Source: Thermoplasmata archaeon | GTDB lineage: Archaea > Thermoplasmatota > Thermoplasmata > Sysuiplasmatales > Sysuiplasmataceae | Assembly (NCBI GenBank): GCA_021806165.1 | Contig: JAJZXY010000009.1 | Span: 1 to 64,000, forward strand | DNA length: 64,000 bases | Direction: 5' to 3' | Part shown: piece after piece, positions 36,835-47,733 of the stretch | Numbering within the stretch: the first letter of the stretch is position 1 | Layout: the number at the start of each line of letters is the position of its first letter | Notes under the pieces: generated by a model | Databases searched by the model: none | What the model was told of the DNA's origin: nothing | The model's input: only the letters and a program-made list of their open reading frames with translations | Position numbers and translations under genes: made by a program

Positions 36835-39377
<2,543 letters not shown>

Positions 39378-40707
39378 TGACTCATCCCGACTGGGTGCTG
39401 AAGCACATGGAGAAGGGCACAGATGTGATCAGGCGCAGCGAAAACTGCCACCCGTACAAGGTCACGGGCGTATGGAACAGGGAGAAGTGAAGGGCACAGC
39501 CGAAGACTGGGAAGTACCTCGTAAAGATCACTACTGACGGCCTAATCCCACCGAGACAGGAGAGGATGCTCGGCAGGCTGAGGCAGGCGGCAATAAAGGA
39601 GTATGGCGCCGCCTTTCTGCTCAGCCACCTTGCCGGCTATATGGCGGATATGCTGGAGAAGGAGTATTCTGAACGGAGGGAGGCTGTTTTCATTCGCATC
39701 CATGGGGCTCCTGAACAACGCGCACATAAAAAAACTCGAATTCCACTACGAAACTTCATTCCTGCCAGAGCTCATACTGGATGCAGACCTCTCAGACAGG
39801 CGAGTGGGCGGCATGCTCAGGGAGGTGGGCATGGACAGAGAGTCCATGATGGAATTAATGAGGAACTTCGTCACGGGCAGCGGTTGCGCCGCCATAGACC
39901 TGACGCATGTGCTCTCGCTGTCCGAGGGCGTCATCTCGTCAATGTTTGGCCACAACAGCAGCGGCGAGCGTCTGCCGCAGGTCAATGTGTCATATCTCTT
40001 CTCGCTTGACAGGATGGAACCGTCCTACTTCGGATGCTCGCGGGTTCGGTCGGCAGCGTCTCCTCCCTTGAATTGGCGGTGAGGGAGAGCGGCGCCTGCG
40101 GCGTCGTGCTTGTCGGTGACAAGGGATTCTACTCCCGCAACAACAGGGAGGAGCTTTAGTCGGCACACATTCACTAAACACTCTCGCTGAGGAGGGACAG
40201 CGTGCTCATCGACTTTGGCGGTATGAAATCGTTCGACCACTTCCTCTTCCTGGGAAGGCGGATATGGTTCCGTGCAAGGAAAGGGGGGAAGAGGAGAAGG
40301 ACATGCACCTCAGGGCGGATAGGGAGAAGGGAAGGGGCAGGAAGCCGGCGATGAAGAATTACTTCCAGGCACAGCACAGGATGGGCACCATTGCAGTGCT
40401 TGCAGACCTGGATGTGGACGGTGGGCACATATTCGAGCTGCTGAAGTCAAGGGTTGACATAGAACAGCCCTATGGCACATTGAAGAACACCATGCACGCA
40501 GACCGCTCGTACATGCGCGACGACTACCGGCTGAATGGCTGGCTGTTTGTCCATTTCATTGCAATGATGCCGCACTACCGCATATACAACCTGCTTGTTT
40601 CACACGAGATGCAGAAACAGTATTCGCCGATGGACGTGATCGAGCATATGTCAAGGGTCCAGATGCTCAGGGTAGACGGCCGATGGATCATGACCGAGAT
40701 GACGTAG
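39378..40707 (+). pseudogene. Decayed DDE transposase (IS1634/IS4-like)
   Basis: An intact start (MTHPDWVLKHMEKGTDVIRR) is cut by an in-frame TGA near 39489, at the place where relatives read through WN-K-E-R-G-R-A-Q. Reading then needs several frame changes. The fragments are DGLIPPRQERMLGRLRQAA; LEFHYETSFLPELILDADLS to IDLTHVLSLSEG (first catalytic Asp); VGDKGFYSRNNREEL (second Asp); and finally VDIEQPYGTLKNTMHADRSY to the end (Glu region). The order matches a DDE transposase. At least three frameshifts or stops make it inactive. No terminal inverted repeats or target duplication could be identified by eye. Confidence 0.8.
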
Positions 40708-40766
40708 AAAACGAGAGAGATAATGGCGCAGCTGGAGATAACTATTATTCAAAATTGACGGAGTTA

Positions 40767-40778
40767 GGGATTAATCCC
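40767..40778. promoter_or_regulatory. 12-bp palindrome upstream of the first NnrS-like gene
   Basis: The perfect palindrome gggattaatccc lies about 65 bases before a TATA-like block (ataaaatg, about 40844-40851). The half-site with its flank, ttaggga, recalls the ttagggc half of the repeat at 42173-42190 in front of the DUF2249-cupin gene. It may be an operator or activator site. Confidence 0.35.
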
Positions 40779-40890
40779 AAATATTGGGGACCAGGTTTGA
40801 GACACCGAACGCGATGATTGTGGGCAGATCCGGAAAGATCGACATAAAATGTTTATCGTGCCCGGATTTTCCTGTCATATCAATACTATT

Positions 40891-42153
40891 ATGAAAATTG
40901 AGTCGGAGAAGAGTAAGGCTGGCAGTCGGGGAAGTATAATAAAGTATCACTTTCTGACCTTTGCTGCCGCGGCTTCAGGAATATTCCTCGCTCTTCTGGC
41001 TGCATTTATCGGCTCTAAATATTCATTTGATTATTTTGCCGGACAGAATTCATCTTCCGGTCTGTTTTACGTCCATCCGGTAATGGAAGTGTTTGGCTTC
41101 CTTACGCTTTTTATTCTTGGAGTATCATACGTCGTTCTTCCCAGATTCAAGAACGCGGAACTCGGTCACAAAGGCGCCGCAGCGCTTTCAATTATACTCC
41201 TGTTTTCAGCAAACTCATTATGGTTATACAGGACACCAACATTGCAGGCATCAGGCGACATTCTCTTTATACTGGCCTCTGTAACATCCCTCGCGCTGCT
41301 CGCACCCGTTCTTGGTAAGCCAAAAGGGCCTCTTGCAGTTGCAGAGCCATTCTTCTGGCTTTCGCTTATTTCACTGATTCTTGCTGGACTTATGAAACTT
41401 TATTTCAACGTGTTCCTGCACAGGGCAGGCTGGAGCTCCTTTCCATTTCTGGAAATCACACTTTTCGGATTTCCTGCAATGATGGTTTTCGGCGTTGAGA
41501 CAAGAACAATACATTTCAGGTTTGTGAAACTTAACAAGCGGTCGCTGATGCTTTCATACCTGGCAGCATCCGTCTCGATAGTGCTGACAGCTCTCTCGAT
41601 GTTTCTGCCGCAGGACGACAATTTCCACCTTATTCCCGCGGTAACAATACTGTGGAGCCTCAGCGCCCTGCTATTCCTCTACGGAATCAGAATTTTTCAC
41701 TATTATGTGCAGCCAGAAGTCATGAACCGTATGAATGAGCGTGACAGAAGCAGATATTTCTACTTCAGGGACGCTTCGTCGGTGGCAGGCGCATGGCTCA
41801 TTGCAGGTCTGCTTTTCGCCCCTCTGTTCGTGTCGATGGTTTCATTGCATTCCGCTGATGCGCCGTGGATCCGGGATGCGTTTATACACGCCCTCGGCGT
41901 TGGCTTCCTGCCGGTCAGTATCATGTCGTTCACTCCAACGCTTTTGGTCTCGGTCCTGGCAAGAAGGGCCCCCTACAGGGGACTGAGCAGCATCCCCATC
42001 CTGATATATACGCTTGGAAACGCATGGCGGATATCAGTTGATGTGTTCAATGCGGCGGGTTTGAACGGCCTGTCTGCGTCCGCACCCTATTCTGTAATTC
42101 TTTCCGCAACAGGTTTTGCCATGTTCATCGTCATGCTTTTCAGAATGAGATAA
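40891..42153 (+). CDS. NnrS-like multi-helix membrane protein
   Basis: The roughly 420-residue protein has about 12 membrane helices. Two His-containing segments fit NnrS, a haem- and copper-containing protein tied to nitric-oxide stress and denitrification: HPVMEVFGFLTLFILGVSYVVLP near the N-terminus, and FIHALGVGFLPVSIMSFTPTLL near the C-terminus. The ATG at 40891 (MKIESEKSKAG) is preferred because the upstream ATG at 40849 lies right on the TATA box. It is the first gene of a same-strand cluster (to 45580). Base composition is more AT-rich than in the housekeeping genes. Confidence 0.72.
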   Translation: MKIESEKSKAGSRGSIIKYHFLTFAAAASGIFLALLAAFIGSKYSFDYFAGQNSSSGLFYVHPVMEVFGFLTLFILGVSYVVLPRFKNAELGHKGAAALSIILLFSANSLWLYRTPTLQASGDILFILASVTSLALLAPVLGKPKGPLAVAEPFFWLSLISLILAGLMKLYFNVFLHRAGWSSFPFLEITLFGFPAMMVFGVETRTIHFRFVKLNKRSLMLSYLAASVSIVLTALSMFLPQDDNFHLIPAVTILWSLSALLFLYGIRIFHYYVQPEVMNRMNERDRSRYFYFRDASSVAGAWLIAGLLFAPLFVSMVSLHSADAPWIRDAFIHALGVGFLPVSIMSFTPTLLVSVLARRAPYRGLSSIPILIYTLGNAWRISVDVFNAAGLNGLSASAPYSVILSATGFAMFIVMLFRMR

Positions 42154-42172
42154 AATTCATTGACTTGGGCTT

Positions 42173-42190
42173 GCCCTAATGCGTTAGGGC
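42173..42190. promoter_or_regulatory. Inverted repeat upstream of the DUF2249-cupin gene
   Basis: A perfect 7-bp inverted repeat (gccctaa / ttagggc) with a 4-base spacer lies immediately upstream of a TATA-like tctatttaat (about 42191-42200). The ATG follows at 42227, about 30 bases on, so the transcript is probably leaderless. A protein bound here would sit in the BRE/upstream activator position. Confidence 0.5.
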
Positions 42191-42226
42191 CTATCTATTT
42201 AATTCATACACCATCATTTAATCTCC

Positions 42227-42886
42227 ATGTCACATCAGGAGAAGAAACATCCGGAGCCTACTGTTGTTGATGTAAGGAGCTTGCCTCCCGCGGCGAGACA
42301 TAACCACATCGAAAGAATTTTCGACGGGCTCGAGCCCGGCGGAGAAATACTCGTCGTCAACGACCACGAGCCACTGCATCTCGTTCAATTCATGAAGCAT
42401 GAGCGGAAGGATTTCGACTCATCGTCATACAGTGCCTACAAAAAGAATGACTCGGAGTGGGTTGCCGTCTTCAGGAAAAAATCAGACAGCAATGCCGAAG
42501 TGAAGGGAAACGAACAGGATTTTGTATTTGCCAATATAGAAAAGGAGAGAACATATGATGAGCACTCCTTCTCTCCTGTGCCTGTTTTTTCAGCTGAGGG
42601 ATATCGCGTCATAATGGCATACTTCAGGGCAGGACAGTTTATTCCCGTACATACTCCAGCAAATGATGTGATAATTTTTGTCTATCGGGGCGAGGGTGAA
42701 GTTGTCGCATCCTCTTCCAGGTTCAGCGTAAGACAGGGCGATATGGTTGTTGTCAAAGGCGGCAGGGAGCGCGGTATAAAGGCTGCAACGGACATGCAGC
42801 TCCTTCACATTGTTGTACCTCCTCCGGGGGAAAGCGACCATAACAGGATTTCAGAAATGATTGAAAAGGGACTCTTCGAGCAGTAA
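42227..42886 (+). CDS. DUF2249 domain fused to a cupin
   Basis: The 219-residue protein has an N-terminal DUF2249 domain (about 12-85; VVDVRSLPPAARHNHIERIF, then LEPGGEILVVNDHEPLHLVQ). Its C-terminal single cupin barrel (about 110-205) contains AYFRAGQFIPVHTPANDVIIFVYRGEGEV and FSVRQGDMVVVKGG. DUF2249 domains occur beside hemerythrin domains and NO-related genes in bacteria. Only one His is visible in the first cupin motif (PVHTPAND), so metal binding is uncertain. The gene sits between the two NnrS-like genes, behind its own candidate operator. Confidence 0.8.
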   Translation: MSHQEKKHPEPTVVDVRSLPPAARHNHIERIFDGLEPGGEILVVNDHEPLHLVQFMKHERKDFDSSSYSAYKKNDSEWVAVFRKKSDSNAEVKGNEQDFVFANIEKERTYDEHSFSPVPVFSAEGYRVIMAYFRAGQFIPVHTPANDVIIFVYRGEGEVVASSSRFSVRQGDMVVVKGGRERGIKAATDMQLLHIVVPPPGESDHNRISEMIEKGLFEQ

Positions 42887-43057
42887 CGTGTTCAATGCTC
42901 TCAATCATCGGGCAGGCTGGCATCCAGCGGGCGCGGTTACTCCTGTGATAAACCAGCTTCTCAGACCGATCGAAGCAGCGACCGGCAGATGTGAAAAAGA
43001 ACATGACAGTGAGCTGTTTCATCCCATACGGGCAATGAATGATCATTACGAAGGCTG

Positions 43058-44287
43058 GTGTGTTTGAAAAAGCAGGTTAGGATTTTCCTGGCATTCTCAA
43101 TACTCTTTATGGTGGTTGGCCTTCTTGATGGCGTTTTCAGGCTGATGGCAAGGGAGAGCATAACGACATCTGTCTTCACCGGAATCTACGGTTTCCATCC
43201 GCTTCTTGTCGTATTCGGCTTCATTGCTGTCATAATAATGACGGAAAGGGTAGCAAGTTTAACGACACTTGAATCCATTTCGGCAGGGCGAAGATCCATG
43301 CTTTCCCTGATGGTTCCGTTCACAGTTCTGGGAACCATACTTGTGACAACCGGAATTTCCCTCAGTTCCGTTCTCCTCTCCTATTCCGGCGTGTTATTTC
43401 TCCTGCTTGGCAGCACTCTGTTCATCGCAACACTGAAACTGCTTTCCGGTCTCTCCAATATGAAAACATCGTTCAGATTCATGATACTGTCCGGCATCGA
43501 TCTGTGGACTACCGAACTCCTTTCCCCTGTATTCGGAGTTACCTATCCGGTTGGCTATGATATGCTGCTGCTTTCATTCCCTGTAATATTCATCATAGGT
43601 GAGAGGATAGAACTCACCCGATTCATTTCACAGGGCTATTCCGAAAATCGGTTCAAAACATCCTTGGCGCTCTATGCCATGTCCACTGCGCTGTTCATGC
43701 TGTCGTTGCCCTTCTCTATGGTGGAATACAGATACATGCTTGTTGCTGCAGGCATCATACTGATGGCAATCGGCACAGCGTCTGTCTATGTCACCGAACG
43801 GAGAAACCTGAACATCCTGTCCAGATCCGCGATGCCGCTGCAGAGATATGTCTCGATGCATACGAGGATAGCATATGCCTGGCTCTTTCTGGGCCTCATT
43901 CTCTCGCTGATTTATCTTCTGAGTTTCGGCAGCGTAGACACGCATGACGTTTTCATACATGCGATTGCAGTGGGCTTTGTGCTCACTATGATTCTCGCAC
44001 ATGGCCCGATAATTATGCCAACCGTTGCGGGAAGAAGATTGAAAACAGACAGATTTTCGCCTGTTCCGCTGCTGCTGCTTACTGCTGGAAATGCCGTCAG
44101 GGTCGGAGGCGGGGCAGCGCAGCTGTTCGTCAGCATCCCCATAAACAGCATTCTTGTCGGCCTTTCAGGATGGCCGGTATTCGCCGCACTTATAATATTC
44201 ATGCTTGAAGTCATGATGAAGTCTGAAAAGAGTGTGAGGAACGGGGCGAAGGACACAGTGAAGGGTCAGACAGACAACAGGTCTTAA
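43058..44287 (+). CDS. Second NnrS-like membrane protein
   Basis: The 409-residue protein has about 12 membrane helices and the same two landmarks as the first copy, in divergent form: GFHPLLVVFGFIAVIIMTERV near the N-terminus and FIHAIAVGFVLTMILAHGPIIMP near the C-terminus, where His residues could bind haem. The start is a GTG. The 171 bases before it carry no convincing promoter, so it may be read from the DUF2249-cupin gene. Two distinct NnrS-like proteins in one cluster suggest different roles, for example sensor and transporter, or two subunits. Confidence 0.7.
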   Translation: MCLKKQVRIFLAFSILFMVVGLLDGVFRLMARESITTSVFTGIYGFHPLLVVFGFIAVIIMTERVASLTTLESISAGRRSMLSLMVPFTVLGTILVTTGISLSSVLLSYSGVLFLLLGSTLFIATLKLLSGLSNMKTSFRFMILSGIDLWTTELLSPVFGVTYPVGYDMLLLSFPVIFIIGERIELTRFISQGYSENRFKTSLALYAMSTALFMLSLPFSMVEYRYMLVAAGIILMAIGTASVYVTERRNLNILSRSAMPLQRYVSMHTRIAYAWLFLGLILSLIYLLSFGSVDTHDVFIHAIAVGFVLTMILAHGPIIMPTVAGRRLKTDRFSPVPLLLLTAGNAVRVGGGAAQLFVSIPINSILVGLSGWPVFAALIIFMLEVMMKSEKSVRNGAKDTVKGQTDNRS

Positions 44288-44351
44288 GGCGATAGGCCGT
44301 TCAGCAATGCGACAGGTCGAGTGAACAGATAATAAACCGTTCGAATTATGT

Positions 44352-45002
44352 ATGCACGGTAGGAAAATGATCGAAGTTAGGATAGAGGTGGATCTTCCAG
44401 ACAACTGGGTGAAAAATATCAGCACCGAGCATTCATCCAAAATCAGGATAATGGACTTAAGGGGGACGAGCAAGGACCGGCAAATCCAGGACTTCGTCGA
44501 AATCACCACAACAGCCCGGATCAGAGAGCTTTTTGATGTGTTCTCCCGCTTGGATGGAATAAGCGGAGTGGATCTCGTCCAGATAGAGCCAAACAGGATA
44601 ATGGGCGCCATAACCACGGACAGGTGCCCCATCTGTTCCATATTCGCCGGTCCGAACTGTTCCGTCATTTCGGCAGAAAGCAGGGGGGGAGGGAAGATGG
44701 AGTGGAACCTGCTTATCAGCGGATCTGAAACGCTCAACATGTTGTCTGAAAGGATGAATGAAGTCAAACTGAATTACAAAGTGGTCTCTGTCAGGAATCT
44801 CAAATCAAAAAGGGAGCTGACAGCCCGCCAGCATGAAATAGCCAAAATCGCGTTTGAACTTGGCTACTTCGACTTCCCCAAAAAGATCACTCTCGTCAGT
44901 CTCTCGGAACGCCTGCGCATAGCTCCTCCCACACTCTCGGAGATACTAAGGCGGGTGGAAAAGAATGTGCTTGCCTTCTATTTTCAGACCAGGTGGAATT
45001 AA
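44352..45002 (+). CDS. Bat-type HTH regulator with Cys-rich centre
   Basis: The 216-residue protein ends in a bacterio-opsin-activator HTH domain (HTH_10, about 152-205: LTARQHEIAKIAFELGYFDFP to SERLRIAPPTLSEILRRVE). The N-terminal sensory part includes CPIC at 92-95 and Cys103, a CX2CX7C set that could hold an Fe-S cluster or metal. Haloarchaeal NarO, which controls denitrification genes, has the same plan of cysteine motif plus Bat HTH. By position it is the likely regulator of this cluster. A TATA-like ataataaac at about 44330 precedes the ATG; a Met five residues in is an alternative. Confidence 0.82.
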   Translation: MHGRKMIEVRIEVDLPDNWVKNISTEHSSKIRIMDLRGTSKDRQIQDFVEITTTARIRELFDVFSRLDGISGVDLVQIEPNRIMGAITTDRCPICSIFAGPNCSVISAESRGGGKMEWNLLISGSETLNMLSERMNEVKLNYKVVSVRNLKSKRELTARQHEIAKIAFELGYFDFPKKITLVSLSERLRIAPPTLSEILRRVEKNVLAFYFQTRWN

Positions 45003-45079
45003 TGCTATTTCAGTATGCCTGACGTTTTAGGGGAAACCTATATGCCAGCGGATGCTTTGGATCGCATCGGGTCCTCAAT

Positions 45080-45580
45080 ATGGCTGCCGGCAAGGGAAAT
45101 ATACGCCTTCAGTTCAAGTACGGTATAAAGAATCATCTTGACGAAGAACACAGCGAAATGCTGAAGTCGCTAAAATCTCTCTCCACAGTTGCCGGCAGTA
45201 TGGGCGAATCGGCAGGGAAACTGTTGAAGGCGCTAGTGGCGCATGTGACGGAAGAGGAGAAAACAGTCGTTCCTCTGCTGTCCTCTATTGGAGATCTTGT
45301 GGAAGGGAACGCTGATGAGATGGAATTGTCTCGGCTGTCTCTGCTGGGAAGCGCCCTTACGGAAACATACGCACAGTTTCTCAAAGAACATTCAGACATT
45401 GAGAGGAAAGCCAAGAGCCTGCTGGAAATAGCAGGAAACACAGGAAACACTATGGCCGCCTCCACAATCGAGGGGCTTCAGCACCATATCTTCATAGAGG
45501 AGCTTTTCCTTTATCCTTTCTCCATCCTTGCGGCTAAATATGCATCCCTGGCGGTGTCTGAAAACAGGCGGAGTCGCTGA
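45080..45580 (+). CDS. Hemerythrin-like HHE domain protein
   Basis: The 166-residue all-helical protein has the metal ligands of HHE domains: His19 and His24, His55 with Glu59 (AHVTEEE), His104 (LKEHSDIE), and His135/136 with Glu140 (LQHHIFIEE). Such di-iron proteins bind O2 or NO and include the RIC/YtfE proteins that repair NO-damaged Fe-S centres, although the N-terminal Cys pair of RIC is missing. In this cluster an NO-handling role is the simplest idea. The upstream sequence taggggaaaccta (about 45028-45040) contains a small inverted repeat. Confidence 0.82.
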   Translation: MAAGKGNIRLQFKYGIKNHLDEEHSEMLKSLKSLSTVAGSMGESAGKLLKALVAHVTEEEKTVVPLLSSIGDLVEGNADEMELSRLSLLGSALTETYAQFLKEHSDIERKAKSLLEIAGNTGNTMAASTIEGLQHHIFIEELFLYPFSILAAKYASLAVSENRRSR

Positions 45581-45766
45581 AACACTGTCTTTCGCATAAA
45601 GTGCAATTCCAGAGTGTTCGTGAATTGATTTTTGGTAACCACTCGACTTTCGGTAAATGAGCATGAATCCGCATCTACATTTACTGATTTTTATCTAGCC
45701 TGGATCAAAATTATTTACGTAGGAACGTATTACCTCCCTGAACGACAACAGTTGTCCAATCGTTCG

Positions 45767-46263: not shown

Positions 46264-47733
46264 TTACTGCCCCTGGCCCAGTGAATATCCAGGCTGACCG
46301 TCAAATGTGAACAATCCCTCTGTCTTAACTGGAGGCAGGTCAGCTGTCACAAGCCTTGAGAGGAGTCCGATGACCATTTCATTGGTCACCGGTCCGCCAT
46401 TGCCAGGGGCCTGAAAACGGCAGCGCCAGTGGTCCACGCAGAAGGTTTCTGACATACCGCCTGGATACACCTTCGTCCCCCTGTTTGTGATCATCTGGAG
46501 CTGAAAATCAGGTCCTGCCTGTTTCTCGAGCTGCTGTCCCAGTAATTCGGCCGATCCGCGCCACTCAACGAAAACGTCCACACCCACCAGCTGCTTGACC
46601 TGAAGTGGTCTATTTTTCAACTTGACTGAAATGGGCTCGTCATGCGCAGGATAATCGACAGCCTTAAGCGTCTGCGGCTTTTTTCCAAGTCTCGCAATCA
46701 CGGCCGCAGCGAACTCGCGTGTGCCCACCTTTTCCGTGGAGATTGATGGATCGTATATGTCATATGTGTGGATGCCGTCCTCGATCGTTTTCAGCCAGGC
46801 ATTGTGCACGCGCGCGGCAACATCACCCTGACCGATATGAACCAGCATCTGAACAGCTGCAAGAAGAAGGCCAGACGGATTGGCAACGTTTTGACCGGCC
46901 CGTCTTGGAGCGGAGCCATGAATGGCCTCAAACATTGCCACTTCGCTGCCGATGTTTGCGCTTCCTGCGAGACCGACAGAGCCCGCGATCTGCGCTGCCA
47001 CATCAGAAAGGATGTCCCCGTAGAGGTTTGGCATCACGATGACGTCGAACTTCTCGGGAGTGTCGGCGAGTTTGGCTGCCCCTATGTCGACAATCAGGTG
47101 CTCACTCGACAAATCTGGATATTCGCTGGCGACCTCATCGAACACCCTGTGAAACATGCCATCGGTCATCTTCATTATATTGTCCTTGGTGAAGCAGGAG
47201 ACCTTGCGGCGGCCATACCGCCTCGCATATTCAAACGCATACCGTATCAGTCTCTCGGATCCAGGTCTGGAAATAAGCTTGAGGCACTGGACCACATCAT
47301 CGGTCTGTCGATGCTCTATGCCCCCGTAGAGATCTTCCTCGTTTTCTCTTATTATTACAACATCCATACCTGGATGCTTTGTTGCAATAAAGGGAGCGTA
47401 AGACAGGCATGGACGGACATTGGCAAACAGGCCGAGCGTTTTGCGAACTGTAACGTTCAGGCTCTTGAAGCCGCCACCCTGAGGAGTCGTTATAGGGGCC
47501 TTCAGGAAGACCCTGGTCCGCCGCAGCGAGTCCCAGGATGAATGCTCTATGCCGGATGTAATGCCCCTGTCGTAAATGGATTCGCCTATCTGGATAGACT
47601 CTACAGCCAGACTGGCACCGCCAGCTGATATAATATTGAGCGTTGCTTCCATTATTTCCGGGCCGATACCGTCACCGTACGCGACAGTGACCGGCACGGG
47701 AGCATAGTTCAGCCTCCCATCTATTTTTGACAT
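46264..47733 (-). CDS. icd: Isocitrate dehydrogenase, Thermus/Rickettsia type
   Basis: The 489-residue protein is a decarboxylating dehydrogenase of the TCA cycle. It has VAYGDGIGPEIMEA at the N-terminus, the Asn/Arg substrate site (SLNVTVRKTLGLFANVRP), IIRENEEDLYGGIE, VMPNLYGDILSDVAAQIAGSVGLAG (metal Asp pair) and EAIHGSAPRRAGQNVANP (coenzyme). Unlike the roughly 330-430-residue archaeal enzymes, it carries an extra C-terminal domain of about 140 residues, as in Thermus thermophilus and Rickettsia enzymes. That suggests acquisition from bacteria. It lies in the accessory region beside the tRNA-Glu footprint. Confidence 0.88.
   Translation of the reverse strand: MSKIDGRLNYAPVPVTVAYGDGIGPEIMEATLNIISAGGASLAVESIQIGESIYDRGITSGIEHSSWDSLRRTRVFLKAPITTPQGGGFKSLNVTVRKTLGLFANVRPCLSYAPFIATKHPGMDVVIIRENEEDLYGGIEHRQTDDVVQCLKLISRPGSERLIRYAFEYARRYGRRKVSCFTKDNIMKMTDGMFHRVFDEVASEYPDLSSEHLIVDIGAAKLADTPEKFDVIVMPNLYGDILSDVAAQIAGSVGLAGSANIGSEVAMFEAIHGSAPRRAGQNVANPSGLLLAAVQMLVHIGQGDVAARVHNAWLKTIEDGIHTYDIYDPSISTEKVGTREFAAAVIARLGKKPQTLKAVDYPAHDEPISVKLKNRPLQVKQLVGVDVFVEWRGSAELLGQQLEKQAGPDFQLQMITNRGTKVYPGGMSETFCVDHWRCRFQAPGNGGPVTNEMVIGLLSRLVTADLPPVKTEGLFTFDGQPGYSLGQGQ

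Follow-up and report, generated by a model that had tools for sequence, protein, structure and literature searches.

A candidate nitric oxide response module of acidophilic archaea combines NnrS-related membrane proteins of predicted oxidase fold with a DUF2249-cupin fusion, a Bat/NarO-like regulator and a hemerythrin-like protein

We analysed a 64,000-nucleotide stretch of contig JAJZXY010000009.1 (assembly GCA_021806165.1) from a Thermoplasmata archaeon, hereafter the window, and focused on a gene cluster that an initial annotation had proposed to be a nitric oxide (NO)/redox sensing and protection module. All five same-strand genes (+ strand) assigned to it at 40891-45580 are present:

40891-42153, + strand: gene A, 420-amino-acid membrane protein with predicted haem-copper oxidase fold, in which H62 and H333 are conserved; an accessory of the module
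42227-42886, + strand: DUF2249-cupin fusion, 219 amino acids, conserved H47, H51, H58, H142, D147, H194 and H205
43058-44287, + strand: gene B, 409-amino-acid NnrS-related membrane protein with predicted haem-copper oxidase fold, invariant H47, E63, E182, R183, E185, D297, H301, H315 and R348
44352-45002, + strand: Bat/NarO-like HTH_10 regulator, 216 amino acids, invariant CX2C (C92, C95)
45080-45580, + strand: hemerythrin-like protein, 166 amino acids, conserved ligand residues H24, H55, E59, H104, H135/H136 and E140

For gene A a start at 40891, and not at 40849, is favoured by an indel of 1 nt that the relative G008 shows upstream of 40891. The DUF2249 domain (PF10006) of the fusion protein passes its Pfam cut-off (54.9 vs 29.5 bits), and its cupin half gives a weak Cupin_2 match (23.3 bits, cut-off 27.2); this C-terminal half matches the solved chain 2q30_A with an E value of 1.6e-8, further cupin entries ranking after it. 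The hemerythrin domain (PF01814) passes with 34.6 vs 25.3 bits, and its diiron ligand residues are conserved among relatives, as are the histidines of the fusion protein. The regulator carries a C-terminal HTH_10 domain above the cut-off (61.0 vs 23.1 bits) and a BAT domain (PF15915) below it (12.2 vs 25.8 bits); we therefore call it Bat-like, not Bat. The CX2CX7C motif ascribed to this protein is present in the window (C92-x2-C95-x7-C103), but only its first part is a family trait: CX2C is invariant in 20/20 homologues, and the third cysteine occurs in a minority.

A profile search detected the full-length DUF2249-cupin fusion in 22 of 400 Thermoplasmata genomes. A second collection added copies from Ferroplasma acidarmanus Fer1, from Nitrososphaeria and other archaeal metagenome-assembled genomes (MAGs) and, more distantly, from Planctomycetes. 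We compared 26 non-duplicate archaeal loci, whose carriers are Thermoplasmata including F. acidarmanus, Nitrososphaeria and unclassified MAGs; several contigs are short, so that the neighbour counts are lower bounds. B adjoins or lies near the fusion gene in 25 of the 26 loci, a clustering far above chance. Within 10 kb, the regulator is found in 20 loci and the hemerythrin gene in 16. Gene A is present in six, and a search of genome contigs with gene A alone gave no match. The core is therefore B plus the DUF2249-cupin fusion, with regulator and hemerythrin, and A is accessory. Thus, the neighbourhood survey, which served as a refutation check, bore out the co-conservation of the genes but not the five-gene set as one unit. 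In F. acidarmanus Fer1 (locus L073) the module consists of B, the fusion gene, a small membrane protein and the regulator. The Planctomycetes loci have genes for a member of the COX1 family and for a cytochrome c protein behind the fusion-B pair.

Further proteins accompany some of these loci. A small four-helix membrane protein without Pfam match adjoins the module in 14/26 loci (L067:2309-2779, L070:7340-7846, L073:10633-11109 and others); its sequence is similar to that around the second helix of A but has no haem histidine. At L058:6722-8416 and L065:12753-14312 the A-type proteins carry an additional domain at the C terminus, which in L058 weakly matches DUF2255 / F420H2-dependent quinone reductase. 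In three loci a gene for a MIP18-like iron-sulfur (Fe-S) assembly protein is located between the fusion gene and B (L057:680-1126, L058:10609-10935, L065:10627-10947).

The two membrane proteins had been described as divergent NnrS-like proteins, and the profile and fold searches, again run as a refutation check, agree with this, as no unrelated family emerged. In the B family 15 of 22 members match NnrS (PF05940), with a best E value of 5e-12. A and B are homologous to each other (phmmer E ~1e-11; hhalign probability 99.6%, E 2e-24) and share one fold, and gene A is thus tied to NnrS through B. A conserved HxxxxG motif in the tenth helix of B aligns with Sinorhizobium meliloti NnrS in a single-sequence hhalign comparison, which is not significant on its own.

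Models of A and B were built with AlphaFold2 without template and compared with known structures by Foldseek and VIA. The model of B (predicted local distance difference test, pLDDT, 89.5) gave a VIA Z score of 30.1 to the cbb3 oxidase chain 8smr_E (root mean square deviation 3.6, 384 aligned residues) and 28.0 to the NO reductase 4xyd_A, and the model of A (pLDDT 77.9) scored 29.2 with 8smr_E and 27.7 with the NO reductase 3o0r_B. For both, Foldseek assigned a probability of 1.00 to the match with haem-copper oxidase subunit I, which spans nearly the whole chain at a sequence identity of ~10%. A profile search with B against solved structures matched none of them by sequence, and comparison of the B profile with a COX1/NOR profile gave an E value of 8.7e-6 (probability 83%). 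We therefore work with a predicted haem-copper oxidase subunit I fold of 12 helices for A and B.

In the profile alignment H47 and H301 of B fall on the low-spin-haem ligands of helices II and X, and H62 and H333 of A, conserved in its relatives, are the kept counterparts of these histidines. The position of the high-spin-haem ligand is occupied by F299 in B and F331 in A and not by a His. The CuB/FeB positions hold no His in the B profile alignment, and helices VI-VII have no conserved His. A and B thus resemble the haem-copper oxidase subunit I superfamily (cbb3, ba3, cNOR/qNOR) in predicted fold and in the two low-spin-haem histidines, but differ from it in lacking the high-spin-haem and the CuB/FeB ligands. 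With these ligands lost, reduction of O2 or NO is not expected, and both are probably single-haem, non-catalytic proteins of oxidase fold, as judged from models and alignments. Besides the haem histidines, E63, E182, R183, E185, D297, H315 and R348 are invariant in the B family, so that its membrane domain contains charged residues and a third His within a predicted fold that is also that of cNOR. B, or A and B together, could be an NO reductase that has escaped recognition, its active site being a non-canonical one made of E182/R183/E185, D297 and H315. Such an enzyme would require a wholly new catalytic site in place of the missing high-spin-haem ligand and all CuB/FeB ligands, and we consider it very improbable.

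The upstream sequences have in common a 16-bp palindrome, CCCTAA-N4-TTAGGG, whose variants include CCCGAA..TTCGGG and CCCAAA..TTTGGG. The following elements were located in the window:

42174-42189, unstranded: candidate operator CCCTAATGCGTTAGGG upstream of the DUF2249-cupin gene, conserved there in relatives
42196-42203, + strand: TATA-like box TATTTAAT, read from the sequence, ~27 bp before the start codon of the fusion gene and with the candidate operator directly upstream
40776-40789, unstranded: operator-like palindrome CCCAAATATTGGGG upstream of gene A, its spacing two bases under the consensus, near the left edge of the cassette described below
45017-45032, unstranded: degenerate operator GCCTGACGTTTTAGGG upstream of the hemerythrin gene

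The site at 42174-42189 is the only exact CCCNAA-N4-TTNGGG in the 1.88-Mb genome of the window. The distance of the TATA-like box from the start codon suggests a leaderless transcript of the fusion gene, and a palindrome directly upstream of that box would suit an activator. We scanned promoters using the window's site alone as template, excluding the window and G008, counting as a match at least 10 of 12 positions and taking dinucleotide shuffles as control. A match was found in 20/24 fusion promoters (0.5% of shuffles), usually 34-38 bp ahead of the start as annotated, in 7/24 B promoters (0.2% of shuffles) and in 7/14 hemerythrin promoters (0.4% of shuffles). Several fusion or B genes without a site are located closely downstream of another module gene. 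A binomial estimate of specificity (9/16 strict sites in 13 genomes within 10 kb of a fusion gene) was set aside as partly circular, the motif having been derived from the same loci; the template-only scan is the fair test. In G398 the operator also precedes the gene of a thiamine pyrophosphate (TPP)-dependent enzyme, recognised by eye (L098:12688-14379), and a gene for a 449-amino-acid protein (L098:15069-16418), which may be further regulon members.

A connection to NO emerges from gene context. Quinol NO reductase (qNOR) is encoded in only 2 of the 400 Thermoplasmata genomes (L098:5816-8038, L183:624-2846), and both copies adjoin a HTH_10-type CX2C regulator of the family of the window's regulator; in G398 qNOR, regulator, fusion gene and B are contiguous. 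The initial annotation had noted that no nitrite or NO reductase is present, and this holds genome-wide for the families tested: the genome of the window encodes one COX1 protein and has no match to the NorB domain, Cu-oxidase_3 (NirK type) or flavodiiron proteins, cd1-type NirS having been outside the search. The module would therefore sense and protect, not respire. In bacteria NnrS, COG4309 (= DUF2249) and DnrN are members of NO regulons (PMC1274295), and under denitrifying conditions Haloferax mediterranei alters the expression of two Bat-like regulators and of every one of its four DUF2249 genes (PMC11218638). Hence, of the NO/redox module as originally conceived, the co-conservation of the genes and the absence of a reductase stand, but NO as the signal is something we infer from the regulator-qNOR pairs and from the literature on related families.

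Based on these results we regard it as reasonably probable that acidophilic archaea use the module as a regulon for responding to, and protecting against, NO (nitrosative stress), in a role comparable to that of the bacterial NsrR/NnrR regulons. The Bat/NarO-like regulator would sense NO or the redox state via a metal or Fe-S site on its CX2C cysteines, would bind CCCTAA-N4-TTAGGG immediately ahead of the TATA box and would turn on the fusion gene together with B, hemerythrin and, where present, A. A and B would each hold a single haem b and may bind NO or relay electrons, rather than acting as oxidases or NO reductases, while on the cytoplasmic side the diiron hemerythrin and the metal-binding DUF2249-cupin protein may bind NO, clear it, or supply iron or electrons.

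Several observations weigh against this reading. The match of B to the NnrS profile is full-length but, at 18.8 bits, under the curated cut-off of 28, and the Pfam scan of gene A returned neither NnrS nor any other informative family; both are therefore termed NnrS-related, not NnrS. The palindrome is found in none of the 19 promoters of the regulator itself (template-only test) and is absent upstream of the regulator-qNOR pair in G398, and the link between operator and regulator is therefore one of association. Most module-bearing genomes, like that of the window, have no recognised NO producers or reductases, and DUF2249 proteins have been proposed as nitrate sensors, too (PMC6282519).

Alternatively, the module could be a low-oxygen or general redox (respiratory) regulon: its Bat-type regulator would respond to O2 or redox state, A and B would be haem b quinol or electron-transfer modules that aid the aa3-type oxidase at low O2, and NO would be incidental. 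NarO has been called an oxygen sensor (PMC11218638), a COX1 oxidase is encoded in 22/23 carriers, an NDH-2-like protein is close by in some loci, and the genes of the TPP enzyme and the 449-amino-acid protein behind operators in G398 would fit in as well. Yet the rare qNOR adjoins the regulator family in both of its occurrences, in bacteria NO is the common denominator of DUF2249, NnrS and hemerythrin (PMC1274295), and 22 carriers of the full-length fusion in 400 genomes of the class are far below what a general oxidase partner would lead one to expect. We thus consider a respiratory regulon unlikely. The metal-ligand residues conserved in cupin and hemerythrin, together with the MIP18-like gene in three loci, could also point to haem, iron or copper handling, with the oxidase-fold proteins engaged in the transfer or assembly of haem or metal on behalf of the respiratory chain, and with metal carriage as the task of hemerythrin and cupin. 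As the neighbourhoods inspected contain no recognised metal transporter or cytochrome-oxidase assembly gene and the regulator family pairs with qNOR, this explanation appears improbable.

The module also bears signs of recent transfer and lies in the following DNA block:

40770-45582, + strand: cassette, 92% identical to a block in G008, which belongs to another genus; the match ends at the operon limits

Other genes common to the genome of the window and G008 are mostly 67-78% identical, the COX1 protein being 68% identical, and the same-genus genome G020 carries a diverged version of the module with a fusion protein of 49% identity. In the simplest reading the cassette looks recently transferred; mis-binning of the contig is a possible alternative cause of the identity to G008. 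A remnant of an IS1634/IS4-type transposase (39261-40776), with ~78% identical DNA in G020, abuts the left edge of the cassette. A gene at 46264-47733 (- strand), by eye isocitrate/isopropylmalate-dehydrogenase-like, shares 96% protein identity with G008, where it is on a different contig, and only ~41% with same-genus paralogues; it is a second apparently transferred gene. A Nitrososphaeria origin of the cassette, towards which the trees lean (87/87 for B, 89/86 for the fusion), was dropped as the key neighbours L057 and L058 have no stated phylum.

In sum, the cluster is a genuine archaeal module of co-regulated genes; it varies the nitrosative-stress theme of NnrS, DUF2249 and hemerythrin that is known from bacteria, and its operator is new. 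The NsrR, NnrR, DNR and NorR regulons of bacteria likewise place an NnrS-like 12-helix membrane protein (NnrS, PF05940), a DUF2249 protein and a hemerythrin-domain protein under one NO-responsive network (PMC1274295), but the archaeal module differs from them by a Bat-type regulator in place of NsrR/NnrR, another operator, the DUF2249-cupin fusion, the contiguity of its genes and membrane proteins that stay under the NnrS curated cut-off. The haloarchaeal denitrification clusters of NarO and its relatives (PMC11218638, PMC10062603) also co-locate a HTH_10 regulator without PAS/GAF domains with DUF2249 genes, whereas the module in the window has no nar, nir or nos genes, contains NnrS-like proteins and the DUF2249-cupin fusion, and uses CCCTAA-N4-TTAGGG instead of the haloarchaeal CGAAYATDKTYG. 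DrpA/DrpB of Thermus (PMC6282519) are similar in that a DUF2249 protein takes part in a respiratory control circuit, but, unlike in the window, there is neither a cupin fusion nor an NnrS-like partner.

A broader proposal is plausible in our view but held tentatively: NnrS-type proteins may be haem-copper oxidases that no longer catalyse and whose one remaining haem makes them a membrane domain for NO binding or signalling. In acidophilic archaea, across two phyla or more, they may belong to a single mobile NO regulon that a Bat-like CX2C activator controls through a defined palindromic operator. In the open-access literature, outside of which most subscription papers lie, we found neither the oxidase-fold hypothesis for NnrS nor an NO-linked regulon of acidophiles described. 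If the proposal is true, it would supply a concrete hypothesis for NnrS, which is induced by NO and has long lacked a mechanism: an oxidase fold cut down to a single low-spin haem. For acidophilic archaea it would define an NO-linked regulon whose operator can be searched for, and as Ferroplasma acidarmanus, whose genome is sequenced, carries the module, the regulon would be testable there.

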